Source: Prochlorococcus sp. AG-363-P06 (GTDB lineage: Bacteria > Cyanobacteriota > Cyanobacteriia > PCC-6307 > Cyanobiaceae). From it: DNA of 64,000 bases. How positions within the stretch are numbered: position 1 is the stretch's first letter; the number at the start of each line of letters is the position of its first letter. The DNA lies in the NCBI GenBank assembly GCA_003280025.1, contig QCGD01000007.1, positions 1 through 64,000 on the forward strand. The letters run 5' to 3'. The position numbers were made by a program, and so were the translations under genes. Positions 5,176 through 63,707 of the stretch are shown here, piece by piece. The notes beneath the pieces were generated by a model. The model had not been told where the DNA came from. It did not search any database and worked only from the letters and a program-made list of their open reading frames with translations.

Positions 5176-5909
5176 ATATTATCTATGCTAAATCTATAGC
5201 CTTGTTGCCTTACAGTAGTTATTCCTCCTCCTTCACCTAACCCTGCCTGCTCTAGTTTTCTTCTTAATGTCAGAACTTGAGTATCTACTGATCTTGGCCC
5301 TCCGCTAAATGGAGGCCATGCCATCCTTAAAAGCTCTTGTCGACTTCTTATCATACCTGGAGGCATAAGTAGCGCACAAAGCAAGGCAAACTCTCTTGGG
5401 CTTAATTCTACGGGCTTTTCGCTGAGAGTAACTTGTCTTAAAAGTAAATGAACTTCTAATGGGCCAACTTCAACTTTTTCTTGTAACCCTATTCTCCCTC
5501 TTTTCAAGAGAGTTCTGCATCTCGCTGCTAACTCTTCTAGACCAAAAGGTTTTCTAAGGACATCGTCAGCTCCTTCGTCAAACAAATTCACTAATGCTTC
5601 AACACCGGACCTTGCAGTTAGAACAATAACTGCACATCCAAGTTGATGGGCCAATCTCATTGCCGTATTTTGTTCAAGGATCTCTGCACTTACAAGTAAG
5701 TCAGGTGACTGTTCTCTACATAAATCAACTGCTTCTGCAGCTGATCCAACTGCAGCAGCTAGATGACCATCTTGACGAAGTCTTTGTACTAATACAGTTC
5801 TTAATGTGGGGTGAGGTTCAACGACAAGAACTCTCGAAGGGGTTTGAGAGCTAGAAGGCAATTGTGAACTGCCAGGAGTTGAAGCTAAGATTTGCTCAGT
5901 TGATTGCAT
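5172..5909 (-). CDS. OmpR-type response regulator with degenerate receiver
   Basis: Receiver domain at about residues 26-140 and an OmpR/PhoB winged helix at about 146-243 (L-S-P-R-E-F-A-L-L, then V-D-T-Q-V-L-T-L-R-R-K-L and V-R-Q-Q-G-Y-R-F). The receiver lacks the phosphorylation site: where the family has P-D-L-x-x-x-D, this protein reads P-D-L-L-V-S-A, with Ala75 in place of the Asp. The acidic pocket is E31-P32 instead of D-D. The Thr (V-L-T-A, about T98) and Lys (R-K-P-F, about K120) are retained. A 25-residue Ser/Pro/Gln-rich leader precedes the domain. The protein is unusually rich in Ala, Leu and Arg for this genome. It probably binds DNA without classical phosphotransfer; its targets are unknown. 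It is divergent from the gene at 5996. Confidence 0.88.
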   Translation of the reverse strand: MQSTEQILASTPGSSQLPSSSQTPSRVLVVEPHPTLRTVLVQRLRQDGHLAAAVGSAAEAVDLCREQSPDLLVSAEILEQNTAMRLAHQLGCAVIVLTARSGVEALVNLFDEGADDVLRKPFGLEELAARCRTLLKRGRIGLQEKVEVGPLEVHLLLRQVTLSEKPVELSPREFALLCALLMPPGMIRSRQELLRMAWPPFSGGPRSVDTQVLTLRRKLEQAGLGEGGGITTVRQQGYRFSIDNI

Positions 5910-8287: not shown

Positions 8288-9016
8288 ATGGCTACTTTGG
8301 GAGTAAATATAGATCATATTGCGAACGTCAGACAGGCTCGGAGGACAATTGAGCCGGATCCTGTTCAATTTGCTTTTTTAGCAGAATTAGGTGGAGCAGA
8401 TTCAATAACAGTTCATTTAAGAGAAGATAGAAGACACATACAAGATAGAGATGTATTTATTTTGAAAGAAACTATTAAAACAAAACTCAATTTGGAGATG
8501 GCTGCTACAGAAGAAATGTTAGAGATCTCTAAAAAGCTTCTTCCAGATTATGTAACGCTTGTACCCGAAAAAAGAGAAGAAGTTACAACAGAGGGAGGTT
8601 TGGATGTCAAAAATAATGAAAAATATCTCAAAAACTTTGTTAAATCTTTAAAATATTCAAATATACAAGTGAGTGCATTTATAGATCCAGAAAGTGAACA
8701 GATCAATTATTCAAAAGAAATAGGGTTTGATTTTATAGAATTACATACTGGTAAATATGCCGATTTGAATGGTGAAGATCAATATAAAGAGCTCCAAAAA
8801 ATTATAGAATCTAGTTATGTAGCAAATGATATTGGATTAGTTGTTAATGCTGGACATGGACTAAATTACCAAAATGTACAAAAGATTGCATCTATTAACA
8901 ATATGAATGAGTTAAACATTGGCCATAGTATTGTTGCAAGGGCTCTAGCGGTAGGTTTAGAAAAGTCTGTTCGTGAAATGAAGTCACTTATTACATTAAA
9001 TTCAATTTCAAAATGA
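8288..9016 (+). CDS. pdxJ: Pyridoxine 5'-phosphate synthase
   Basis: Last ring-closing step of DXP-dependent vitamin B6 synthesis, condensing 1-deoxyxylulose 5-phosphate with 3-amino-1-hydroxyacetone phosphate. At 242 residues it has the normal length. The family start (L-G-V-N-I-D-H-I-A-N-V-R-Q-A-R) is followed by the active-site segments H-L-R-E-D-R-R-H-I and, later, N-A-G-H-G-L-N and N-I-G-H-S-I-V-A-R-A. The stop TGA overlaps the ATG of ycf54 by 4 nt (ATGA), so translation is probably coupled. Confidence 0.96.
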   Translation: MATLGVNIDHIANVRQARRTIEPDPVQFAFLAELGGADSITVHLREDRRHIQDRDVFILKETIKTKLNLEMAATEEMLEISKKLLPDYVTLVPEKREEVTTEGGLDVKNNEKYLKNFVKSLKYSNIQVSAFIDPESEQINYSKEIGFDFIELHTGKYADLNGEDQYKELQKIIESSYVANDIGLVVNAGHGLNYQNVQKIASINNMNELNIGHSIVARALAVGLEKSVREMKSLITLNSISK

Positions 9017-9347: not shown

Positions 9348-12300
9348 TTGCTCAATATTTATAAGTCAAACAAAATTGAAGTAATAAGTGAGCTGTTAGC
9401 AGAAGAATTAAGGATTTACCCTCCTTTTATCACTGAAAAATTAGAAATAGCGGTTCCCAATTATTTTCTGGGTAGGTGGTTATGGGAACAAATAACTATA
9501 AAAAATCAAATAAGTGCACTTTATGAATTAAAGACAATATCAAGCTATACCGAGACATTATTAACAAACTTTTTCCCTGAGATTGATATGGGCTTATGGA
9601 ATTTTGAGTCAATTAAATGGGGGATTATAGATTCATTAGAAGAATTAAATGATTTTAAAGAATCTTGGCCACTAAGTAATTGGATTAAAAAATATTTGGA
9701 CAATAAAAAGACAATTGATGGGGACATTTATAATTTGACAAAAAAAATTACGAATAATTTTATTGATTATCTCATTTTTAGACCTGAAATGATTGCTGAA
9801 TGGAATAGATACGAAATTAATTCACTCAATCTTTTTAAAAATTTAAATTCAAATCAATTTTGGCAACCAATTTTATATAAATTATTACAGAAAAAAATAT
9901 CTGAAAACCCTTCATGTCTATACATGATTGAAGTAATAAATAATTTAAGAAAATTTAAAAAATTGCAAGGCAAGATCCCAAATCAAATTTATATTATTTT
10001 GGATAATAATATATCTAAACTACATATTAATTTTTATTCAGAACTTTCAAAATTTACTAAAGTAAATTTATATTTATTATCTGCAGGAGATGATTTATGG
10101 AATAGAATAAATTGCCTTGATGGAGAGTTGGAATTTGATGATTTTCAAAGTAAATTTAATATGAAAAATACAAATATTGAAAAAATATTTGGTAAATTTG
10201 GAGCAAATTTTCAGAAATTAATTGAGGAAAATATTTATAAGGAAGATATAAAATTAAAAAATAATTTAATATATATTGATCCAACAATTAATTTTTCTGA
10301 GAAGAAAGATATTTCTCTGCTCAATCAAATCCAAAAAAGACTAATTGATAACAATAACAATGATTTTATAGTAAATGAAAATGATGATTCAATAATACTT
10401 GTTGAGCATTTTAATCAACTAAGTCAATTAGAATATTTAAGAAATAAAATACTAGAAATACTAGATTCTTGTGAGAATATTAAATATAGTGATATTGCTG
10501 TTTTATCTCCACAAACGAGTCAAATCAAACCTTATCTAAAGTATATCTTTAATAATGAGTTAATTAATGGTGAAAAGATACCTTATTTTTTTATTGATGA
10601 GGATAATGATCAATCTTCAGACATATATAAATTTTTAATTGACATAACTGAAATAGCAAATGAGAAAATTACACTAGAAAAAATAGATTATCTTCTTTCT
10701 AAAAAAGTAACTCAGAACATTTTTGATTTTCATATTACTGAGAAGGATGAAATTATTTTGTTACTTACCCAAGTAGGTTTTCATTGGGGATTAGATGCCA
10801 ATGAAAGACTAGGTGAAGAAGAAAACACTCTAGAGTGGTGTATAAATAGAATTACTTTAGGCTTAATTTATGATATAGAAGCTAAGTTAAGTACTTTAAA
10901 TCTAAAACCATTTAGCCCAAAAAATATAAATTTGGATTTGCATAAATGGATTAAAATATTAATTCAGTTTAAAAAATACATTAATTTGCTTAGGGGATCT
11001 TTTTCTTACTTCAGTTGGGTTGAAAAGATAAAGTTTATTTTAAAAAACATTTCTGATTCTAATGCAAATTTTAATTTACAAATAAGTGAAATAAATAGGA
11101 TTTTTGATAATCACGAATTAAATTTAATACCAGATGATCTTATTTTGTTAAATGTTTTTAGAGAGATATTAATTACTTGCATAAATAAAGCTAAATATAA
11201 AGGGCAATCACGTATCAACAAGATTCTAGTAAGTGACATTGAGAATGCTAGGCACATTCCAAATAAGGTTATCTTCCTCCTCAACATGAATGGTGTTTAT
11301 TATCCAAAATTATCAATGAATGAAAATATTAATTTATTAAATAATCAATATTACCTAGGCGATCCATCAGTAGTTGAAAGAGAAAAATCTTTTTTTTTAG
11401 AGTTGTTAATTGCCTGTAGAGATAAATTAATAGTTACTTGGGTAAAGAATGACAAAGACAATAAAAAATTAGATGTTTCTTTTCCTATAAAAGAGTTAAT
11501 TTCTTTTTTTGATAAAATTTTAACCAAAGACCAAAGAAAACTAATAATAAAAAATTATGATTTAAATAAAAAGGCAAATATTGATCTTGATAGTTCTAAG
11601 ATTATTAAAAGTCATTATTCGTTAATAGAAAATATAGATTGGAAAGAAAAAAATTACGATATTAAAAATTATAAATTATCAGAATTAATTTATTGGTTCA
11701 AAACTCCTCAAAAATATTGGCTTAATAAAAAAAATATTTCTCCCAAGAGAATATTTATGCATCATCCTGACGAGGAGTATGTAAGCAATTTAAAGAAGTC
11801 TCAATTAATGACTAATGTAATCCAGCAATTAGAGATTGATAACTATAACATTATTGATGATTTAAAAAATTTGAATATTAATGATAAATTCGTTGAAAAT
11901 GGAATTATTACGCCCAAAAATAGTATTTTTGATAAACAAAATGAAATTAAAGACTTAGTAAGTAGTCTTTCTGAAGAATTGATTAAACATAATAAAATTT
12001 ATAGAATTTACGTTAAATCAAACTCAAATAAGGAAGAATATTTCATTGATGATGACACCGTAATTGAATTAATTCATGAGAAACTAAGTTTAAGACGTTT
12101 GAAAGAAGCTTGGATAAAATTACTCTTTATTTCCTCTTTAAAGAAGAATATAAAAAAGACTAAAGTAATTTTTAGAACAGAAAATCAATATAAATCTCAA
12201 ATTATTCAATCACCTGGAGCAGCTGATTCAAATTTAATTTTGGAGGAATACATAAATGTTTTTAAGAATTATTCTGAAAAATGTTTACCTCTTCCTCCAG

Positions 12301-13015: not shown

Positions 13016-16000
13016 ATGGATATTAATCAAATCAAATTAGATAATAAGTTTAAATTAGTAGAAGCAAGTGCAGGGACTGGTAAAAGTTTTACTTTGGCTC
13101 ACATAGTTTTAAGAAATGTTTTGGAGAAAAAAATTAAACCAGATGAGATACTCTTATTAAGTTTTACAAAAAATACGTGTTCTGAATTACGAGATAAAAT
13201 AGTTTCAAGATTTAATAAATTAAAATTATTTTTGCAAAATCATAAAGCAACTGAGATAGATAATACTCTTCAGAATTGGTATTTAAAATTTAAGGAGAAG
13301 GAAAAATCTAAGGATAAAATTATATCTGAAATCGATAATTTTGTTAATCAAATTTATAAGTTAAAAGTAACTACATTCCATTCTTTTTGCAATAATATTA
13401 TGGATGAATATAGTATTGAAATTGGTTTAACTCAAGATTCCTACATTGAGAATAATATAGATAATTTGTATAAAGATGTAATAGATAATTTGTGGCTAAA
13501 TGATTTTCTAAATCTTCATCCAAAGCTGATTTCAGCAGTTAGCAAAAAAAAAATAAGTTCTAGATTTGGAAGTAGAATCAATAAGTCATTTTTTGTAGAA
13601 ATTTTAAAAAATATAGATCAAGAAAATATTTGCAAATTTAAAATAAATAATAAATATAAGAATATTGATATAACTAGTTATTTAAATGAATTTTTGTATT
13701 CTAGTTGGAATGAGTTTTATTTTGAATGGAATAAGAATGGGAAAGAATTATTTCTCCAACTTATTGAGTTAGGCAAATTAATTAAGGACTGTGGTGGTAA
13801 AAGTCAAATATATGCAGCTAAACCAAGAAATGATAAGTTCAATCAAATAATTTGTTGGATTGATGAAATTAACAAAAGGCTTGGTTCAAAAGATATTATT
13901 GAATTTATTAATGATATTTCTAATGAGGATCTTTTATTTAAATATTTTTATAAAGAAAATATATCTAAAGAAATTAATAAAAATAATCTAAAATTAGATT
14001 TTACTAAATTTAATTTACTACAAGAAAAAATTTATAAAATAAAAGAAGGGATCTATAACGAATTTGTAAGAATATTTACCCAATTAGCTTATATAAAATT
14101 AATTGAATTAAAGAAAAGGCTTTCTATTTTTAACTTCAATGATCTTATAAAGACAATAGAAAATACATATCTAGATTCAGATCTTAGTAATAGTAATCTA
14201 ACTCAAATTCAAAATCGCTTTAAATGTGTCTTAGTAGATGAGTTTCAAGATACAGATAATATTCAGTGGAATTTAATTAAAAAGTTCTTTAATACACAAA
14301 ATCATTTTTTGCTTTGTGTAGGTGATCCAAAACAAGCGATCTACAAATTTAGGGGAGGAGATATTGAAACTTACTTAGATGCAAGATCTAAAGCAATCGA
14401 AGTTTTTACTCTTACAGATAATTATAGATCCTCAAAAAAATTACTAGATGTTATTAATAAACTTTATAAGAATGGACTTAAAGAATCAAAACTAAAATAT
14501 AGGAAATTAAACTCTATTATTAATGAAAATATTAATTCAGAATATAAATTTAAGGATGTATTTGGAATTGTAGAATTTTCAAAAAAAGAGACTGATTTAG
14601 AGGATCTTGTAACTCGTTACATAGTTAATTTTATTTTAAATAATAATGAAATTGATATTAATAAAATTGCGATTCTTACCTTAAATAATTCGCAATGCTT
14701 AGATTTTAAAAATAAATTAAACCAGTATAATGTACCATGCAAAATTCAACATAAACAAAATATTTTTGATACAGAAGCAAGTAATCTATTATTTTTATTC
14801 ATTGATTGTTTATTGCATCCTAGGCTTTATAAGAATATAACTTTATTGGCTGCTTCAAAATTTATAGAAATTGATTTAGAAGAATTAGTTGATGATGGAA
14901 TTAGTAATAAGTTAAAATTTTTAATTAATAAATGTATTACTTGGTCTCAGGAACTAAGAGAAAAAGGGTTTTTAAATATTGTTAATGAACTTCTTATAAA
15001 TTACAACTCATCCTCGATTATTCGAGATTCAGATTTAAATTCAAATTTATTTCAACTTTCAGAAATTATTGAAATAGAATTAATCAATAATGATTTTAAT
15101 CTCAATAAAGTTTTTAACTGGTATAAAAACCAGTTAGATCATTCTTTAAGAATTTGTACTGGAGAAGATTTTTTGACGAATGATTATAATCTCCAAAATG
15201 GAATTAACCTTTCTACTATCCATAGTAGTAAGGGCCTTGAGTTTGATATGGTCTTATGTCCATATCTCTCTATTATTTCTAATAAATCAAATAAAATTAA
15301 AGGACCTATTTGGAAATCAAATATTGATAGAAGCATATACATTAATATTTCTAATAATTATTGGAAGGTTGAGAAATTTAAATTAAAAGAAGAAATAGAT
15401 TTATTTAAAGAGAGTGAAAGGTTAATTTATGTAGCCCTTACAAGGAGCAAATATAAGCTTATAGTTTTTAATGATTTAGAAGATAGAAATAATATTTTAA
15501 ATAATGATTTACTATCTAATTTGGAAAATATTAATATTCATAAGTCTACTTTTGAAGATGTGATAGAGAAAGACAAAATTAAAGAAATTTTTTCTAAGTT
15601 CCAAATTAATGGATTGAATAAAAATCTTTGGAAATTAGATAAAGCTAATAAAAAAATATCTAGAAAATTTACTTCTGGTCAATTAATTTCTTATTCAAGT
15701 TATTCTTCATGGATACGCAAAGATAAAAAAATTGAATCAGCCATTAATCAGTATAAGGATTATGAAGATAAAATCTCAATTATAAATATTAAACACGAGT
15801 CTAATTTTAATAAAACAAAAAGTTATCCGAATTATTTTTCTTATCCAAATCCCTTAAGTGAATTTCCAAAAGGAACTATTGCTGGGACTTGTTTGCATAA
15901 AATAATAGAAAGATTTGAATTTAGAAACGATAATAATCAAGAATTAATTGATTTAATTGTTGAAGAATTGAACTTTCATCAAATCGATACTTCTTTGGCT

Positions 16001-45136: not shown

Positions 45137-45209
45137 GGCCCCATCGTCTAGAGGCCTAGGACACCTCCCTTTCACGGAGGCGACAGGGGTTCGAATCCCC
45201 TTGGGGCTA
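45137..45209 (+). tRNA. tRNA-Glu (anticodon UUC)
   Basis: A 73-nt cloverleaf. The acceptor arms are GGCCCCA and TGGGGCT (with a G-T first pair), the anticodon loop is CTTTCAC (UUC) in the stem CCTCC/GGAGG region, and the T arm is AGGGG-TTCGAAT-CCCCT, followed by discriminator A. CCA is not encoded. In cyanobacteria this tRNA also feeds tetrapyrrole synthesis through glutamyl-tRNA reductase. Confidence 0.95.
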
Positions 45210-57627: not shown

Positions 57628-59211
57628 ATGAATGGGAGTAACCCAAATAAAACCAATTTAGGAAGATTAGCAATAGTTTTACATGCCCATCTTCCTTACG
57701 TAAGGAAAAATGAAAAAAATTCTTTAGAGGAAGATTGGTTATTTCAGGCAATATTAGAGTGTTATATTCCATTGCTTCAAGTAATAGAATCTTCTCAAAA
57801 AGAGAATCCCTTAAATACGAAACTTACGATTAGTTTATCTCCAACATTATTATCTCTGTTACAAAATGAACAAATTAAAGAAACTTTTCCATCTTGGATT
57901 GAAACAAGAAAGTATTTTCTGAATGATTTATCAGGAGAAGAAAAAGTTGCATCTGAATTTTTATTGAGAAACTTAAATGAAAAATATTTATATTGGCAAA
58001 AATATAGTGGCAATTTAATTGATAGGTTTAAAGTTTTAAATCAATCTGGGAATTTAGATATTCTTACTTGTGCAGCTACGCATGGATATTTGCCAATTCT
58101 TAGAGAGAATCCTGAAACTGTTAGAGGGCAAATCAACACGGCAATTGTTAGTCACAAAAATCATCTAGGAACTAATCCTTTAGGCATTTGGTTGCCTGAA
58201 TGCGCATATTATGAAAACTTAGATCAGGTATTATTTAATTCTGGAATTAGATATGCAGTTCTAGATGGTCATGGAATTTTGAATGCATCTCCAAGACCTA
58301 GATATGGAGTTTATGCACCTATATGTTCAAAAAATGGAGTTGCTTTCTTTGGCAGAGATAGTGAATCAACCTTACCAGTATGGTCTGCTAAAGATGGATT
58401 CCCAGGAGATAAACTTTATAGAGAATTTCATAAAGACTTAGGATGGGAATTACCTCCTTCAAAACTGAAAAAAAAAGGCATTCCAAGTGTAAGGCCTCTA
58501 GGTCTAAAATATTATAAAATTACTGATGAAAAAATCCCCCTAGGTAAAAAAGATTTTTATATAGAAAATGAAGCTAGAAGGAAGGCGGAAGAACATGCTG
58601 ATACTTATCTTTTATCAAGATCTAAACAATTAGAAAACTTATCTTTATCCTCATCTTTTGAGCCTTTGTTAATAGCTCCATTTGATGCCGAATTGTTTGG
58701 CCATTGGTGGTATGAAGGCCCAATATTTATAGAAAATATTTTAAAAAAATCGAATAAATATTCAATTAGACTTACCAACTTAAAGGAAATTCTAATGGAA
58801 AAACCAAAACTTCAAATTTGTGATCCATCTCCTTCAAGCTGGGGCCAAGGGGGATATCATAACTATTGGCTTAATGATAAGAATTCTTGGATTGTGCCTG
58901 AAATTACTAAGGCAGGTTCAATGTTTGTTGAGTGTTCTTCAAAAAGCTTTCACGATGAATTTTCAATAAGAGTATTAAAGCAAGCAGCCAGAGAATTGCT
59001 TCTTTCTCAATCATCAGATTGGAGTTTCATCTTAAGGGCGGGAACGACGACTGAGCTTGCTAAGGAAAGAATTGATAGACACTTATTTAGATTCTGGAAA
59101 CTAATTGAAATGCTAAAAAATATATCCAAGACAGATTTAATATTTCTCGAGATGATAGAAGAAGAAGATAAAGTTTTTCCTGAAATAAATATCCTTGATT
59201 GGCAAAAATAA
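57628..59211 (+). CDS. Glycoside hydrolase family 57 enzyme, probable alpha-glucan branching enzyme
   Basis: A 527-residue GH57 protein. The first block is L-H-A-H-L-P-Y-V-R, the nucleophile Glu lies in G-I-W-L-P-E-C-A-Y, and the acid Asp in A-P-F-D-A-E-L-F-G-H-W-W. The C-terminal helical domain (about 420-520) matches the DUF1957 part of bacterial GH57 branching enzymes. The likely role is adding alpha-1,6 branches to glycogen, together with MalQ. An alpha-amylase or glucanotransferase activity is the main alternative. Confidence 0.88.
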   Translation: MNGSNPNKTNLGRLAIVLHAHLPYVRKNEKNSLEEDWLFQAILECYIPLLQVIESSQKENPLNTKLTISLSPTLLSLLQNEQIKETFPSWIETRKYFLNDLSGEEKVASEFLLRNLNEKYLYWQKYSGNLIDRFKVLNQSGNLDILTCAATHGYLPILRENPETVRGQINTAIVSHKNHLGTNPLGIWLPECAYYENLDQVLFNSGIRYAVLDGHGILNASPRPRYGVYAPICSKNGVAFFGRDSESTLPVWSAKDGFPGDKLYREFHKDLGWELPPSKLKKKGIPSVRPLGLKYYKITDEKIPLGKKDFYIENEARRKAEEHADTYLLSRSKQLENLSLSSSFEPLLIAPFDAELFGHWWYEGPIFIENILKKSNKYSIRLTNLKEILMEKPKLQICDPSPSSWGQGGYHNYWLNDKNSWIVPEITKAGSMFVECSSKSFHDEFSIRVLKQAARELLLSQSSDWSFILRAGTTTELAKERIDRHLFRFWKLIEMLKNISKTDLIFLEMIEEEDKVFPEINILDWQK

Positions 59212-59327
59212 AATTTAAGACTGATTCAACCTATTTATACCTAACACCATAATCACTAAGAACCCAGTTGTTGCAATAGTTTTGCAAAGAAGTAATGATA
59301 TTTATGTTGAGTTTTTCAATCTAAATT

Positions 59328-59648
59328 ATGTTGCTTAATGTCACAAAGAAACAAACAAAATCTGAAATAGATCCAACTCTTCAAGCAAGGGTTAACAAAG
59401 ATTTATACGACCAATTCACTAAACTAGCGGAACAGTATGGCTGTTCAAATGCAGAACTGATTAGAGCTTTAATTAGAGACACTCTTACAAAACATGAGGA
59501 GCTAGGAAGAACCTATCCAACACAATCAAGGGCATCACTTTTCCCTTTAAGAAATTTCATCTTTATCATCATCCCAAGGATCTATAGGTATTTCAAAGAT
59601 TGGCCTGATGCCTGTATTTTTTTCTCTCCTATCAGCTTCAGAGATTAA
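59328..59648 (+). CDS. Ribbon-helix-helix (CopG-like) protein with a doubtful C-terminus
   Basis: Residues about 16-60 (D-P-T-L-Q-A-R-V-N-K-D-L-Y-D-Q-F, then C-S-N-A-E-L-I-R-A-L-I-R-D-T-L) form a ribbon-helix-helix DNA-binding domain as in CopG and antitoxin-type regulators. From about residue 73 the frame runs antisense to the last 34 codons of the convergent gene at 59547-59756. It becomes oddly hydrophobic (F-I-F-I-I-I-P) there, so the true protein may have ended near residue 70 before a stop was lost. No toxin partner is visible next to it. Confidence 0.7.
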   Translation: MLLNVTKKQTKSEIDPTLQARVNKDLYDQFTKLAEQYGCSNAELIRALIRDTLTKHEELGRTYPTQSRASLFPLRNFIFIIIPRIYRYFKDWPDACIFFSPISFRD

Positions 59649-59756
59649 CGATTCTCGAAATTCTTTTTCCTCTTCTGATTCATCCTCTGGGATAAATGAA
59701 GGGTCACCATTTACCATGCATGCAATCACAAATTGTTGTTTGTTAGTAAGCCCCAT
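59547..59756 (-). CDS. Small acidic hypothetical protein, 69 aa
   Basis: A 69-residue acidic protein, M-G-L-T-N-K-Q-Q-F-V-I-A-C-M-V-N-G-D-P-S-F-style start, then E-D-E-S-E-E-E-K-E-F-R and a C-terminal D-P-W-D-D-D-K-D-E. No signal or membrane helix. The charge pattern and proper ATG make it a believable gene, but the last 102 nt overlap the convergent ribbon-helix-helix gene, so one of the two ends may be wrong. Function unknown. Confidence 0.65.
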   Translation of the reverse strand: MGLTNKQQFVIACMVNGDPSFIPEDESEEEKEFRESLISEADRREKNTGIRPIFEIPIDPWDDDKDEIS

Positions 59757-59786
59757 CTATTGAGTTATTAATTGCACTTTAATCTT

Positions 59787-59803
59787 AGATCGAATGTCAA
59801 TTA
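59787..59803 (-). repeat. Decayed copy D of the island repeat
   Basis: Differs from the 17-nt core found in copies A, B and C at two positions. It lies in the gap on the 3' side of the DUF4268 gene, the same relative position as the other copies. No hairpin or T-run accompanies it. Confidence 0.55.
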
Positions 59804-59842
59804 GTAACTATCAGCGGAGAAAGTAGTAAGCGTTTCATTTAT

Positions 59843-60751
59843 TTAAAGGACTTCTTTTAAATTGCATACATATAAATCTTGCATTAGATGAAGCCAATCA
59901 ACCTTCTCCGACCAGCAAGTTTCATCAGTCAAATCACCCGATGATTTTTGGTGAAAGAAATATCCTCTTTTTCCTCCATCTCCGAGAGGGGCGCCAAGAG
60001 AATTTTCTAATGCTTCTTGATGAGGTTCCAACTGCAGGAATATGTTCTCAATTTCTGCATTTCGACCACCTCGAACAAATAAACCTACTTCCTTTTTTCC
60101 AATATAAATAGAAACCCAAAGATCAGAGTCAGGGACTTGACGCCAATGAGAACTAGTCGCCATACGTCCGTCCCATTCTTCCTGCTCAGGATGACGTTCA
60201 ATAAGATGTTCCCAAAAGCGAAGTCTCCATTTACTTAATCCACTAAGTTCTCCTGATGATCGTACTTGTTTTTGTATTTGACGATCCCAATCATTTGGCT
60301 TGGCAACGATTTCGAATAATGGAGCAATTGGAGAATTACCAATTTGTACAGCTTTTACCTGAACAGCAAAAAAAGCAAATGGTGCGACAGTGTGATCATT
60401 TAGCCACTGCACTGCTGAGATATGAGGATCTCTAAAACTGCTGGCAACCCAAATAACAACTTGTGCTTCTAATCCAGCTAAATAGGTAAGGATTTGTCCA
60501 AGATGTGTGTGATCAGTTTGTTCTAATTGGTTTTCAATAAGAACTCTCGAGTCGTTCTGGGGATTCCTGGCAAGGATATCCGCTGAGAATGAATCAACAC
60601 TAACTTCTTGACCTTCTAATTCAAGAGGTATACCTATAGCTGCAGATAATCGATCAAGATTGTCGGCAAGCCAAGGAGTAAAATCTTGTGCTTCATGACT
60701 CCATGCTTCTCTAAGATTTACATTCTTTAGTGTTCCAAGTTTTGTATCCAT
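59843..60751 (-). CDS. DUF4268 protein with PD-(D/E)XK nuclease-like N-terminus
   Basis: A 302-residue soluble protein. The N-terminal half shows W-S-H-E-A-Q-D-F-T-P-W-L and the nuclease-like pattern S-A-D (D58), then V-L-I-E-N-Q (E73, Q75), then H-L-G-Q-I-L-T-Y. This is the D...E-x-Q form of the restriction-endonuclease fold. The C-terminal half (about 170-300) is the DUF4268 domain with F-W-E-H-L-I-E-R-H-P. Base composition is visibly less AT-rich and the residues less Lys/Asn-rich than in neighbours, which suggests recent transfer. No methylase or helicase partner is adjacent. Role unknown; DNA processing or defence is plausible. Confidence 0.85.
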   Translation of the reverse strand: MDTKLGTLKNVNLREAWSHEAQDFTPWLADNLDRLSAAIGIPLELEGQEVSVDSFSADILARNPQNDSRVLIENQLEQTDHTHLGQILTYLAGLEAQVVIWVASSFRDPHISAVQWLNDHTVAPFAFFAVQVKAVQIGNSPIAPLFEIVAKPNDWDRQIQKQVRSSGELSGLSKWRLRFWEHLIERHPEQEEWDGRMATSSHWRQVPDSDLWVSIYIGKKEVGLFVRGGRNAEIENIFLQLEPHQEALENSLGAPLGDGGKRGYFFHQKSSGDLTDETCWSEKVDWLHLMQDLYVCNLKEVL

Positions 60752-60799
60752 TTCTATAACCTATTATTCATCTAGCTAAGAAGCAAGAGGTGGGTGGAG

Positions 60800-61108
60800 T
60801 TAGTAGTCATCATCATCATCATCATCATCATCTGGGAAAGATCCATCATTTGGGACCTTGAAGAAGCAACTAATCTCACAATCACCACCAGAAGGATCTT
60901 CATCTTTAGTGAAGTTACTTGTTGAGTATGGACAAGACTTCATCCATTCTTCAAATTCTTTAATCTTATTTTTCGGAATATTGCTGAATATCCATTGCCT
61001 CATATAGAATTGATCATTGTCTTCTTCATCCCAAGCTTCAATATCCGCTTCATCATTGACGGGACATAAAGCCATCCATTCTTCAAATACTTCAAACTGA
61101 TTTTTCAT
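60800..61108 (-). CDS. Acidic protein with duplicated FEEWMxxCP motif and poly-Asp tail
   Basis: A 102-residue protein. The nonapeptide F-E-E-W-M-A-L-C-P at residues 8-16 recurs as F-E-E-W-M-K-S-C-P at 52-60, each preceded by a helix, so the protein looks like two diverged repeats. Two further cysteines (C-E-I-S-C) sit near residue 78. The C-terminus is nine aspartates and a tyrosine, encoded by a trinucleotide run. It is strongly acidic overall. No family is recognised. It is the gene between DUF4268 and DUF3303 in the island, all on the minus strand. Confidence 0.72.
   Translation of the reverse strand: MKNQFEVFEEWMALCPVNDEADIEAWDEEDNDQFYMRQWIFSNIPKNKIKEFEEWMKSCPYSTSNFTKDEDPSGGDCEISCFFKVPNDGSFPDDDDDDDDDY
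60809..60832 (-). repeat. Trinucleotide microsatellite encoding poly-Asp
   Basis: Eight uninterrupted GAT codons on the minus strand (ATC on plus), followed by GAC-TAC-stop. It is in frame and forms the tail of the acidic protein. A run of this kind can change length by replication slippage. Confidence 0.9.
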
Positions 61109-61151
61109 TTTGTTTAATTAAAATAGTTAATGAATAAAAAATTTACGCATT

Positions 61152-61174
61152 AAAAAAGAGGGTTTTACCCCTCT
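61152..61174 (-). terminator. Intrinsic terminator in repeat copy A
   Basis: On the minus strand, stem GAGGG/CCCTC (extended by one A-T pair) with a 6-nt loop is followed by a run of six T. It lies 27 nt downstream of the DUF3303 stop and fits termination of that gene. Confidence 0.7.
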
Positions 61175-61196
61175 ATGTTAGATCGACTGTCAATCA
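61152..61196 (-). repeat. Island repeat copy A (near-palindrome plus terminator)
   Basis: A 45-bp unit. The minus strand reads the core TGATTGACAGTCGATCT, a short spacer, the GAGGG/CCCTC hairpin and a T-run. The 15-bp GATTGACAGTCGATC within the core is a near-perfect inverted repeat (one G-T position). It is placed immediately 3' of the DUF3303 gene. Confidence 0.8.
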
Positions 61197-61200
61197 CCAA

Positions 61201-61473
61201 CTATGAGTAGACTTTTGCAACCATTGGACCAGCTTCTTCATCAGTAAATACAGGTGTTGTTTCCCAATTTAAGAATTCACCCCATTCAGCTGCATGTTGA
61301 TATATTGCTTTTGGATCATCAGTCTTTAAAACTATCCAACCCTCTAAAGAACCAGGTGCATGATATCTTCCAATCATCTCAACTCCAGGATAATCTCCCC
61401 CTCCACCAAGAAATTTTTCTGCACCTTTTTGATGATATCCAGTCTTAAATGACCAATGCTGAACATAAAGCAT
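61201..61473 (-). CDS. DUF3303 family protein, 90 aa
   Basis: A 90-residue soluble protein with the DUF3303 pattern: V-Q-H-W-S-F, R-Y-H-A-P-G-S-L-E-G-W-I-V-L, and A-A-E-W-G-E-F-L-N-W-E-T-T-P-V. The fold is expected to be a dimeric alpha-beta barrel, as in the next gene upstream. No function is known. It ends 5 nt before repeat copy A. The intergenic gap to the next gene holds repeat copy B. Confidence 0.85.
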   Translation of the reverse strand: MLYVQHWSFKTGYHQKGAEKFLGGGGDYPGVEMIGRYHAPGSLEGWIVLKTDDPKAIYQHAAEWGEFLNWETTPVFTDEEAGPMVAKVYS

Positions 61474-61543
61474 TTTTTTAATTTTTATTGGCTTTCTATT
61501 ACTAGCAAGAAAAATAAATCCTGAAAATAAATAATGTTAATTG

Positions 61544-61570
61544 CCTCTTTTTAAGATCGACTGTCAATCA
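61544..61570 (-). repeat. Island repeat copy B (partial)
   Basis: Contains the full 17-nt core at 61554-61570 and a CCTC remnant of the hairpin's one arm, but the GAGGG arm is missing, so no terminator can form. The stop codon TGA of the ABM-like gene (61564-61566) lies inside the core. Confidence 0.75.
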
Positions 61571-61872
61571 TGAAAACCAACTTTAGAAACAATATTTCCT
61601 GAAACAGGATCAGTAACTCCAAGTTCAGGAGACAACTCTTCCATAAATCCTCTAACCTCATCAAGGTGAGCAATCATAGCTGGTCTTTGAGCTGCAATAG
61701 CTTCTGCACTTTTCCAAATCCCAACAAAACAGTAATCATAATCACCAGTTTTAGCGATATATCTTTGAGTCATCCCCTCAAAACTTGTTTTAGCTATTAC
61801 TTCAAAATATTTTTCTACACAATCCTGTTTCAACTTAAATCTAACGACATTCATGAAATTTGGTGAGCTCAT
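61564..61872 (-). CDS. Antibiotic-biosynthesis-monooxygenase-like (dimeric alpha-beta barrel) protein
   Basis: A 102-residue protein. N-V-V-R-F-K-L-K-Q-D-C-V-E-K-Y-F, G-D-Y-D-Y-C-F-V-G-I-W-K-S, and M-I-A-H-L-D-E-V-R suggest the ABM/dimeric alpha-beta barrel fold, used by small oxygenases and by non-catalytic proteins. The ATG at 61872 abuts the T-run of the terminator in repeat copy C, so a second ATG seven codons in (61854) may be the true start. The last codons and stop come from repeat copy B. Confidence 0.78.
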   Translation of the reverse strand: MSSPNFMNVVRFKLKQDCVEKYFEVIAKTSFEGMTQRYIAKTGDYDYCFVGIWKSAEAIAAQRPAMIAHLDEVRGFMEELSPELGVTDPVSGNIVSKVGFHD

Positions 61873-61896
61873 AAAAAAAAGAGGGTTTTATCCCTC
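61873..61896 (-). terminator. Intrinsic terminator in repeat copy C
   Basis: On the minus strand, stem GAGGG/CCCTC with a 6-nt loop is followed by eight T. It lies 30 nt downstream of the stop of the gene at 61927-62277 and ends directly at the annotated start of the ABM-like gene. Confidence 0.7.
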
Positions 61897-61920
61897 CAAT
61901 TTTAGATCGACTGTCAATCA
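61873..61920 (-). repeat. Island repeat copy C (full, 48 bp)
   Basis: The most complete unit: near-palindromic core (61904-61920), 7-nt spacer, hairpin and T-run. It is nearly identical to copy A across the hairpin and identical to copies A and B across the 17-nt core. It lies 6 nt downstream of the stop of the neighbouring gene. Confidence 0.85.
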
Positions 61921-61926
61921 ATACAA

Positions 61927-62277
61927 TTATGCCACCAACTGTTTTTCTAATGTCTGATATTTAATTACCTCTTTAACATCAATTCCTAATACATCAGCGT
62001 CTTCTGATCTTTGACCTAATCCAATATATTCATTAGTTTTATTGTCATACATACCAATACCAACTTCAAAACTAATTGGGCTTTCATATTTTCTTGCTTT
62101 ACTAAACTTTTCTGGAATTAAGACCTGCACAGCCAAACCAATATCTTTTAAAAATAAATTAAATTCTGATCTTTTTTCTTCAATCAATCTATCTTTATCT
62201 AAAAAGTAATTAACTTTATCTCTAATATCTTTTGCAGTCCATCTAAATTTATATACTCTGTATTTCTTTCTAGCCAA
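61927..62277 (-). CDS. Hypothetical protein, 116 aa, TTG start
   Basis: Not recognised. Basic N-terminal segment (K-K-Y-R-V-Y-K-F-R-W-T-A-K-D-I-R-D-K-V), a helix, then V-Q-V-L-I-P-E-K-F-S-K-A and I-S-F-E-V-G-I-G-M-Y-D-N-K-T-N-E-Y-I-G-L-G. The only usable start is TTG at 62277, which lies inside the truncated recombinase ORF in another frame, so the N-terminal 25 residues may be artefactual. Repeat copy C follows its stop. Confidence 0.6.
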   Translation of the reverse strand: MARKKYRVYKFRWTAKDIRDKVNYFLDKDRLIEEKRSEFNLFLKDIGLAVQVLIPEKFSKARKYESPISFEVGIGMYDNKTNEYIGLGQRSEDADVLGIDVKEVIKYQTLEKQLVA

Positions 62278-62429
62278 TTAAGATAATCTTGCTCTTGTCT
62301 TTCTATTCCAGACTTATCTTCTTTAGTTTGTGCCTTAGTACTAACTCGAATATATGAGACGGCAAATTTAGTAGCAACTGGAGTTGGTTTACTGTTTGTT
62401 ATAGAAGTTTTTATAGACTTTTTAGCCAT
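62199..62429 (-). pseudogene. Truncated serine recombinase (resolvase N-terminal fragment)
   Basis: A 76-residue ORF. After a 20-residue Ser/Thr/Lys leader it reads A-V-S-Y-I-R-V-S-T-K-A-Q, the start of the resolvase/invertase catalytic domain with Arg28 and the nucleophile Ser30, then G-I-E-R-Q. The family match stops after about residue 60 and the frame closes 15 residues later; a working domain needs about 120 residues plus DNA-binding parts. It is probably a remnant of a mobile element. The overlapping TTG ORF (61927-62277) begins at its broken end. Confidence 0.8.
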
Positions 62430-62495
62430 TACTCTAATTTGACTTAAAGGCAGTATGGCACAGGTTTTATGTTATGACAAAAGGGGTAGAATGAC

Positions 62496-63707
62496 TCAAT
62501 TTATATTAAGCATTCCAAGTTTAACTTTTAAAGGTGAATTTATAAACATCTTACTCATTACATAAATTAATTTTGGAAGAGGGAGTGTATTTGTAAGAAA
62601 ACCGACCCATTCTTTTGTTGATAATTTAAAAAAGCTAGAAAAGAAACTTCTTAATTTACTCTCATCAAAACGCATTAATCTTTGGAGACCATATTGATAA
62701 AGTTTATGTCTTTGAGTTAATTCATAAGGCCATAATACTTCCCAGCCTTTTGAGGCTAATTCAATAGAACTTTGATCTGGTTCTTTTAAATAAATTGCTA
62801 ACTTTTCTGCAAGTAGTGGAGCTCTTCTTAATAAAGATCCGATCATGTATCCAGATGCAGGATGAACCATGCTCGCTGCTCCTCCAAAACCAAGCACAAA
62901 TTGTTTTTTAAATGGAAGAGGTAAATTCATTGGAAACAGACAATTTTCTTCATGGTATATCTCTTTTATCTGGATACCTTTATTTTCTAATCTGCTAAAA
63001 AGTCTTTTTTTAAGGCGATCTTGAGATAAAGCAGGATAACTAGCTAATGATGTCTCTTCAACAAAAAAAGTATCATTACCTAAATCCATCGCATAAAGAA
63101 AGGAAGGGGATGATAGTTTCTCTTCCTTATTTAAATGGTCTGGTCGAAAATCCATTAAAACAAACTGATCCTTTTTAACAGGTGGCGATGAAAATTTACC
63201 AACAATTCCATAAGCAGCTTGTTGAGCCACATCATTTCTGGCGGGTCTTTTTATAAAGTTACTCTTATGACCACTAGCATCAATAACTAATCTTGCCTTT
63301 AGTTTTAGGCCTGAGAAACAAATTACTTCAGAAAAGTTTTTTTCTTCTGTGATTTGTTTCGCTGTTTCATTCAGCCATTCAATACCTTTACATTTTTTTA
63401 AAAGTTCATTTTGAAAGGCTTCCTGGTTTATTAATCCGTAATCGTATCTATGTTCTGTAGAATTATTACCCTTCTCACTTATTCCATTTCCAAAAAAGCT
63501 TACTGTATTAGACCATCTATGCGATAGCAATGATTCTAATCCTAATTCCTCTAATTCAGATGCCCATATTCCATATGTATTTTCCCATTTATCCTTTGGT
63601 GATTTAGTTGATATACCCATAATATTGAGATTCTGTTTGGCTAATTCAGAAGCTAAACATAATGCTGCAGGACCAGAACCTAAAATTAAAATATCAAGTA
63701 TTTTCAT
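62496..63707 (-). CDS. crtL: Lycopene cyclase (CrtL type)
   Basis: A 403-residue flavoprotein that cyclises lycopene ends to beta (or epsilon) rings for beta-carotene, zeaxanthin and alpha-carotene. FAD-binding G-S-G-P-A-A-L is near residue 10. Y-G-I-W-A-S-E-L-E and, later, G-F-G-G-A-A-S-M-V-H-P-A-S-G-Y-M are typical. Marine picocyanobacteria have two related cyclases; I favour the beta type but the sequence alone does not settle it. It follows gyrA by 23 nt on the same strand. Confidence 0.9.
   Translation of the reverse strand: MKILDILILGSGPAALCLASELAKQNLNIMGISTKSPKDKWENTYGIWASELEELGLESLLSHRWSNTVSFFGNGISEKGNNSTEHRYDYGLINQEAFQNELLKKCKGIEWLNETAKQITEEKNFSEVICFSGLKLKARLVIDASGHKSNFIKRPARNDVAQQAAYGIVGKFSSPPVKKDQFVLMDFRPDHLNKEEKLSSPSFLYAMDLGNDTFFVEETSLASYPALSQDRLKKRLFSRLENKGIQIKEIYHEENCLFPMNLPLPFKKQFVLGFGGAASMVHPASGYMIGSLLRRAPLLAEKLAIYLKEPDQSSIELASKGWEVLWPYELTQRHKLYQYGLQRLMRFDESKLRSFFSSFFKLSTKEWVGFLTNTLPLPKLIYVMSKMFINSPLKVKLGMLNIN

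Follow-up and report, generated by a model that had tools for sequence, protein, structure and literature searches.

A 17-nt repeat as the probable exchange junction of small gene cassettes in Prochlorococcus islands

The phototroph Prochlorococcus is very abundant and has a streamlined core genome. In the window analysed here, namely the whole 64,000-nucleotide (nt) stretch at positions 1 to 64,000 of contig QCGD01000007.1 of Prochlorococcus sp. AG-363-P06, an array of small minus-strand genes is punctuated by copies of a repeat whose 17-nt core, TGATTGACAGTCGATCT, is followed by AAMAT. The question raised by this locus is why the same short sequence should stand at the end of one unrelated gene after another. 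An earlier note on this DNA proposed that gene and repeat move as one cassette, or that the repeat is the target or scar of cassette insertion. The comparisons reported below led us to the view that the core is probably the junction at which small gene cassettes are exchanged in Prochlorococcus islands, with larger movers carrying ready-made arrays of such cassettes.

A pattern scan placed exact copies of the core at 61180-61196, 61554-61570 and 61904-61920 and, with two mismatches, a further copy at 59787-59803. All four lie on the minus strand. The expectation was 0.08 copies, and four or more were obtained in 0 of 100 shuffles. The coordinates in the earlier note were therefore right, as was its statement that every copy lies 3' of a minus-strand gene. 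The core at 61180 is found 4 nt past the stop codon of a DUF3303 gene, that at 61554 overlaps the stop codon of the open reading frame (ORF) 61564-61872, that at 61904 lies 6 nt past an ORF of 116 amino acids (aa) and has the left arm GCATAATTGTAT at 61921-61932, and that at 59787 follows a DUF4268-like ORF at a distance of 39 nt. The further claim of one repeat per gene holds for these four ORFs and fails for the 102-aa ORF at 60800-61108, which has no core of its own.

The earlier note had suggested searching the rest of the genome and other Prochlorococcus genomes, and the core proved abundant in both. At up to three mismatches it occurs at 24 places in its own genome (reversed pattern, 0), and at up to two mismatches in 150 of the 151 genomes of the genus sample, the sole exception being 56% complete; the reversed pattern gave no match over these 151 genomes except in G094 (two matches). 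An order-wide scan found the core in 108/108 genomes of the genus, as against a stray match in 15 of 191 genomes of other genera (the eight non-genus matches listed have one or two mismatches), with the reversed pattern matching once each in G185 and G194. In a scan of named genomes, 39 stretches matched, 38 from Prochlorococcus and one from an 'uncultured Synechococcaceae'. A chance repeat is ruled out by this enrichment in the window, in its own genome and in 150/151 genomes of the genus, while some of the three-mismatch places in the own genome may be due to chance.

One of the 24 places is a three-mismatch match in a tRNA-Asn gene (L018). Together with the tyrosine recombinase genes near cores on contig C14, this match would suit a core that is a tRNA-derived attachment site of tycheposon-type elements; however, the tRNA-type repeats of the island consist of a 49-nt fragment of different sequence, present in three copies beside tRNA-Pro, and the cores sit between single genes. 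With different repeats in the same island, this explanation was rejected and we regard it as barely credible. The three tRNA-like fragments of 49 nt stand at 5841-5889, 8761-8809 and 10776-10824 of locus L097 in the own genome, beside the tRNA-Pro gene (14592-14666) and a tyrosine recombinase gene, in what looks like a tycheposon-like island.

A gene is followed by the core, the core by a terminator and the terminator by the next gene, whose start often lies just past the T-run. This order is evidenced by counts at 298 elements in comparison with random places. A same-strand stop codon falls within -60 to +20 of the core in 149/298 elements, compared with 51 on the opposite strand and 412/3000 random places; a same-strand start lies 15-60 nt past the core in 170/298 (opposite strand, 18; random, 694/3000), with the start codon at 28-30 nt in 102 of the 298. 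A terminator-like fold was found to the right of the core in 162/298 elements, to its left in 21/298 and at 191/3000 random places. The copies are thus not scattered at random relative to genes, an outcome that the earlier note had set against its proposal. This regularity was also seen within single families, DUF3303 occupying 73 places and the 102-aa gene whose stop the core overlaps 59, of which 30 loci each were read for the distance to the stop: the best core match lies at +4 past the stop in 29 of the 30 DUF3303 loci (at most three mismatches in 20/30) and overlaps the stop in 30/30 loci of the 102-aa gene (at most three mismatches in 24).

An alignment of 89 copies with at most two mismatches showed conservation that is weak from -10 and extends to about +44, comprising the core, AAMAT and a hairpin with a T-run. 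Inspected by eye, the hairpin comes as two unrelated sequences, AGAGGGATAAAACCCTCT and AAGGAGCAATTAGCTCCTT, and since both share one core, the core is ruled out as a part of the hairpin. The right half of the unit has the G+C-containing hairpin and T-run of an intrinsic terminator. By sequence and fold, type-1 terminator hairpins with a T-run lie on the minus strand at 61152-61175 behind core 61180 (z -2.89) and at 61873-61899 behind core 61904 (z -2.84). The hairpin and T-run that the earlier note gave to its extended copies are real at these two cores, whereas core 61554 has no hairpin (z -0.02) and core 59787 folds without the shape of a terminator (z -1.55). Within the four folds the core forms a weak 6-bp hairpin in three, and the terminator is separate in two. 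Among copies selected at up to two mismatches, 15 of the 17 core positions are at least 89% conserved, well beyond the hexamer TTGACA that the core contains. This breadth argues against a promoter in which TTGACA would be the -35 box of the next gene, as does the lack of a -10 box at 16-19 nt in type-2 hairpins, judged by eye with no promoter scan run; the hexamer itself and the near-constant distance to the start codon speak for such a promoter, which we consider very improbable.

What changes at the core was addressed by comparing the flanks of 250 distinct elements pairwise. Both flanks were alike in 154 pairs, the left flank alone in 490, the right flank alone in 409 and neither in 29377, after exclusion of 695 of 31125 pairs that fell between the flank-identity thresholds. 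In left-only pairs the likeness holds to about -7, is slightly lower from there to the core and is down at background from +18 onwards; in right-only pairs identity stays at background as far as -1. Behind the core of 30 DUF3303 loci stand at least seven different genes. Conversely, when the same family stands behind the core, the left neighbours vary: 25 copies of one family have 12 different neighbours, 22 of another have 7, and three further families show 12 with 5, 9 with 6 and 7 with 6. An ORF of such a recurrent family lies behind 174 of the 299 elements. The same pattern persists in genomes of four contigs or fewer (21 pairs sharing both flanks, 58 the left only, 36 the right only), and it is therefore not solely an artefact of single-cell assemblies.

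Homologous gene 3' ends without a core served as a control, pairs with a core on one side only being excluded. The downstream sequence diverged in 361/496 pairs with cores, compared with 377/1161 pairs without a core in islands and 63/1026 far from cores; counted by family, downstream breaks were seen in 8 of 10 core families versus 56 of 144 island families without a core. These figures come from loci sampled mainly around cores, DUF3303 and the 102-aa gene.

The search for occupied and empty intervals covered 92 loci with 299 elements in 43 genomes, an empty counterpart being a site that combines the first core's left flank with the second core's right flank. Fifteen same-strand core-to-core intervals have such a counterpart elsewhere, in 26 combinations with flanks 84-100% alike; two groups are mutual counterparts, namely G034 with G127, and G048 and G110 with G148. 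The clearest case is a 1274-bp unit that G048 and G110 have and that G125 and G148 lack at the corresponding site, the flanks being 98.8-100% alike; at the empty site the left gene is followed by the core and by the right junction's terminator. The same case may be described as A-X-B in G048 and G110 versus A-B-X in G148. The exchange point maps to -5 to +25 in 12 of the 15 intervals, and in 12/15 the terminator travels with the gene downstream of it. Five combinations lie entirely among genomes of at most four contigs, one of them among single-contig genomes, and single-cell chimeras can therefore not account for all of them.

As these genome comparisons show, neighbours change and gene-sized units come and go at the core, and cassettes differ in presence, order and neighbour without broken genes. 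The synteny switch and the fifteen intervals together lead us to regard the core as the probable junction where gene cassettes exchange, with cores presumably recombining with each other. The proposal that gene and repeat form one cassette is supported as far as the switching at the core, the presence and absence of units and the varied left neighbours go; its content needs revision, in that the unit looks like a terminator plus gene between two cores (12/15 intervals) and not like a gene plus repeat. Could the 48-bp unit instead be a PRE1-like miniature mobile element that itself transposes to gene ends? A genus-wide repeat of about 48 bp and the longer left arm common to six copies in the own genome would suit such an element, but the genome differences are whole genes between two cores (no search was aimed at unit-only differences) and the terminator varies beside a near-invariant core, which makes it quite improbable.

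In the mechanism that we propose, a cassette would comprise a terminator, start codon, gene and stop codon between two cores, and core-to-core exchange would place the terminator and gene that follow one core behind the gene that precedes another. The core would be the recombination site of a trans-acting recombinase, with a role like that of integron attC and no relationship to it, and larger movers would ferry ready-made arrays between loci and cells. Whether the site is specific or the exchange is plain short-homology recombination is close to evenly balanced, and we lean slightly towards a specific site, as the core is near-invariant beside variable terminators and as DUF3303 copies with a decayed core mostly keep their hairpin.

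A different account holds that core and terminator form a functional gene-end element, whose homology of 17-48 bp lets RecA or phage annealing proteins shuffle genes while selection removes gene-breaking exchanges. Such an element would explain the fixed place before the terminator, the fixed distance to the next start, the switches that fall in the terminator or T-run and the lack of recombinase matches; moreover, a core with at most three mismatches accompanies 27/28 type-1 and 21/28 type-2 hairpins, found with patterns drawn from core copies, and hairpin and core vanish together in one family. Against these observations stands the behaviour of DUF3303. There the core has decayed (at least 4 of 17 positions changed) in 15/43 distinct copies, and 13 of these 15, with cores at 4-6 mismatches, retain the hairpin; since the hairpin outlives the decayed core, the core in this family is not kept by selection for termination. 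In addition, two unrelated hairpins share one core, so a conserved core-hairpin pairing is unlikely, and most mapped switches lie where the core region alone is common to both sequences. We consider the gene-end account unlikely, though likelier than the promoter, attachment-site and miniature-element readings.

Several results weigh against the core as a cassette junction and its recombinase site. The switch falls at +39 to +46 in 2/15 intervals and at +20 to +45 in 1/15, and the fits of the switch point vary from 47/65 to 58/58 informative columns. In an ungapped comparison, the identity of right-only pairs past the core exceeds background and falls short of that of both-flank pairs, and their terminator identity is only intermediate. 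Element pairs are not independent, some gene families dominate them, and the direction of change is not polarised. In 43 distinct DUF3303 copies and 38 of the 102-aa gene, exchange is only weakly commoner at intact than at decayed cores, a slight trend; in the corresponding hairpin analysis (43 and 37 copies), the 102-aa family loses its terminator along with the core (7/19, 1/9, 0/9). Finally, an exchange between sequences that share only the core must map to the core, and its position is therefore no proof of a specific enzyme.

The enzyme side also counts against it, as no matching recombinase was found among those examined. A homologue of the resident tyrosine recombinase occurs in 101/101 genomes from 20 genera, far beyond the range of the core, and large serine recombinases occur in 7 of 151 genomes of the genus; at up to three mismatches no core was found in 30 tyrosine- or 7 serine-recombinase loci of about 3 kb. 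The order-wide tyrosine recombinase is thereby ruled out as the specific enzyme by its presence in all 20 genera tested, and the large serine recombinase as a genus-wide enzyme by its 7/151 genomes. PF00589 is listed for 41 genomes. The one lead among recombinase genes is that a 396-aa tyrosine recombinase of G000 and, in G110, a fragment of a relative (136 aa, 58% identical over 136 aa) both end right before a core with a similar left arm, GCATAATKGTAT; the places concerned are G000:C14:31587-32179 and L189 13122-13555. The order-wide enzyme, with 386 aa at G000:C3:141183-142340 and a homologue in all 101 genomes (20 genera), is in its own right a candidate chromosome-dimer recombinase.

How the cassettes reached the window was read from orthologous loci. 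All four cores lie within an inserted block at 59219-62499, which is missing from 20/20 orthologous loci read (L346 and L057-L075, out of 87 genomes with the neighbouring gene); there the flanking genes are adjacent. We take these two convergent neighbours, named by reading the sequence alone, to be a lycopene cyclase of crtL type (62496-63707) and a GH57-type gene (57628-59211). A locus conserved with its repeats in all relatives, the outcome that the earlier note had set against its proposal, is thus not what was found, and conserved intergenic sequence of an old locus is ruled out.

The dinucleotide AA stands at both ends of the block and once in the empty site, as in G104, which amounts to a 2-bp overlap with a restored empty site. 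The nearest relative's empty site reads AAAATTTAATTTATATT, and the window has AAAATTTAA joined to GACTGATTC at the left end and GAATGACTCAA joined to TTTATATT at the right. The left end, GACTGATTCAACC (59219-59231, plus strand), matches the right end, GAGTCATTCTACC (62485-62497, minus strand), as an imperfect inverted repeat at 10 of 13 positions; in G021, TGACTCATTCTACC stands between the lycopene-cyclase-type gene and a recombinase gene. Serine recombinases leave a 2-bp overlap and imperfect inverted-repeat ends. A remnant of such an enzyme lies at one end of the block: comparison with G021 identified the minus-strand ORF 61927-62277 as a C-terminal fragment of a large serine recombinase and 62199-62429 (minus strand; PF00239 resolvase-domain match below the Pfam cut-off) as its N-terminal fragment. 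Their DNA is 84% identical to the open gene of G021 on either flank of a gap of roughly 1.3 kb, and 61927-62429 is probably a single large serine recombinase gene that has lost a large internal part. The 116-aa ORF of the earlier note thus stands as an ORF and is the C-terminal part of this broken gene. PF07508 was not found in the own genome, where end fragments of the recombinase are all that remains.

The empty site shows that the 3.28-kb block entered between two convergent genes as one piece, of serine-recombinase type, and not gene by gene at this site. With its empty site, inverted ends and recombinase remnant, the block would be the work of a large serine recombinase element that carried the array as a passenger and afterwards lost most of its recombinase gene. 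Since the block ends are not cores, two layers are to be distinguished, the integrating element and the cassettes inside it. Relatives of the element differ in their load, G006 and G143 having the recombinase and a presumably ligase-like gene without cores, and G110 carrying DUF3303 and a second cassette with cores behind recombinase and ligase-like gene. As a side observation, at L391 8266-11680, L390 11099-14519 and L189 5429-9670 serine recombinase and ligase-like gene seem to be integrated in a glyoxalase-type gene, with a shortened copy on one side and a full copy on the other; the names ligase-like, glyoxalase (VOC) and cupin are our presumptive ones, taken from reading the sequence.

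The cargo consists mostly of small genes, among them DUF3303, DUF3764, the 102-aa family and several without a Pfam match. On the minus strand of the window block lie a 69-aa ORF (59547-59756) starting 30 nt past core 59787, the 302-aa DUF4268-like ORF (59843-60751), an acidic 102-aa ORF (60800-61108; this is the one without its own core), the DUF3303 gene (61201-61473; in 71/151 genomes of the genus) and the 102-aa ORF at 61564-61872 (in 52/151); on the plus strand a 106-aa ribbon-helix-helix ORF of CopG type (59328-59648) scores equal to the Pfam cut-off. Of the labels first given to these genes DUF3303 stands, DUF4268 remains below the Pfam cut-off, and the 'ABM-like' 102-aa ORF 61564-61872 has no Pfam match at E 0.1. 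The DUF4268-like protein has a counterpart with 97% identity in a G136 array (L082:15882-16790). At 64 of the 73 places of DUF3303, counting that in the window, aa identity is at least 96%; between genomes the neighbouring gene 62496-63707 mostly shows 82-87% identity, a contrast that favours recent transfer of DUF3303. Two further observations concern the surroundings of cores: a short frame MKRLLL.. with an early stop, resembling the start of a signal peptide, is seen at 59804-59840 of the window and in other elements (e.g. L082 15660-15699), often directly before the core, and at L082 4222-4283 two inverted cores have one terminator in common.

A cassette may also carry an RNA gene. Genome G015, presumably MED4, has 14 cores at up to two mismatches, five at 347-361 kb and seven at 1347-1365 kb. 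A passage of PMC2518516 gives the non-coding RNA (ncRNA) Yfr11 at complement(358606..358754), places Yfr20 in island 5 of MED4 and states that this island responds to phosphorus starvation and high light. If G015 is MED4, Yfr11 ends in a terminator-like stretch 13 nt before the core at 358575-358592, and the seven cores lie 11-28 kb from Yfr20, a figure that gives distance and not position inside island 5. On the same condition Yfr11 is located directly upstream of a core and of a DUF3303 gene (L171, 358575-358754), an arrangement that we record in its own right.

Cores were also seen in viral sequences. Three IMG/VR contigs have a core with terminator near the contig end (L216 1-1100, L247 1-563, L215 1-60), and the two that were compared with phage records match cyanophage genes, L216 phage uvsX and L247 phage phoH. 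A 142-aa protein between cores of L216 is 99% identical to one in host locus L089; beyond the core of L247 lie 545 bases with 97% identity to a G136 array, and 406 of these bases are 98.5% identical to the DUF4268-like region of the window. Because the cores lie at contig ends and the arrays are nearly identical to those of hosts, the contigs may represent either fresh phage capture or chimeric assembly. In the phage collection the 45-nt unit had partial matches in 19 records, none covering 80% of it, and among the 58 stretches matched by a degenerate viral pattern none viewed by eye, except in L215, L216 and L247, had a terminator behind the core.

Should the core be a junction, gene traffic in the islands becomes readable gene by gene, cores can serve as tags for a catalogue of cassettes, and experiments can be aimed at the enzyme. 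More tentatively, and with some doubt, we suggest that Prochlorococcus may have an integron-like system of its own, in which a 17-nt site, a trans-acting recombinase and a terminator before each cassette would spread single genes, and perhaps an ncRNA gene, through almost all of the genus; the carriers would be serine-recombinase elements, tycheposons and perhaps cyanophages.

Among the literature matches listed, nothing concerned this repeat, cassette junctions, the two terminator types or empty sites; the closest known systems compare as follows. PRE1, a 48-bp repeat reportedly described from MED4 islands in 2006, is like the present unit in length and genus, the two features by which it was compared. 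Large serine recombinase elements resemble the window block in the 2-bp overlap, the inverted ends, an empty site exact to the base and the remains of a recombinase at one end, and relatives adjoin the same flanking genes (the G021 recombinase gene starts beside the same kind of neighbour as in the window, that of G123 beside the other neighbour); unlike them, the block has a broken recombinase and ends that differ from the core, and such an element therefore explains the block and not the cassettes. The dif modules of plasmids, served by Xer, place short sites between small gene modules, as is the case here; they differ in that no pair of 11-bp arms was seen in the core and in that the range of the tyrosine recombinase is far wider than that of the core.

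Tycheposons, described in a passage of PMC10872708 as having border tRNA genes and a tyrosine recombinase, share with the present system the exchange of island cargo; one and the same island of the own genome contains tRNA-fragment repeats as well as tyrosine recombinases. Set against that passage, the core differs by standing between single genes and not at tRNA borders. The block itself has no border tRNA, with two tRNA genes in the window at the Rfam gathering threshold (1300-1371 and 45137-45209), and contig C7 gave no PF00589 match.

The last comparison is with integron cassettes and their attC sites. No integron integrase was found beside the arrays in the loci examined, with no integron-specific model run, and the conserved stretch shows by eye no paired outer boxes of the attC kind; the site here is a conserved one of 17 nt with a separate terminator beside it. 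The likeness is that each gene has a single short site, always on the same side, that the units are gene-sized and reordered, and that the cargo is mostly unknown small genes; cassettes with one site apiece likewise vary in presence and order, as observed in the 15 unpolarised intervals.

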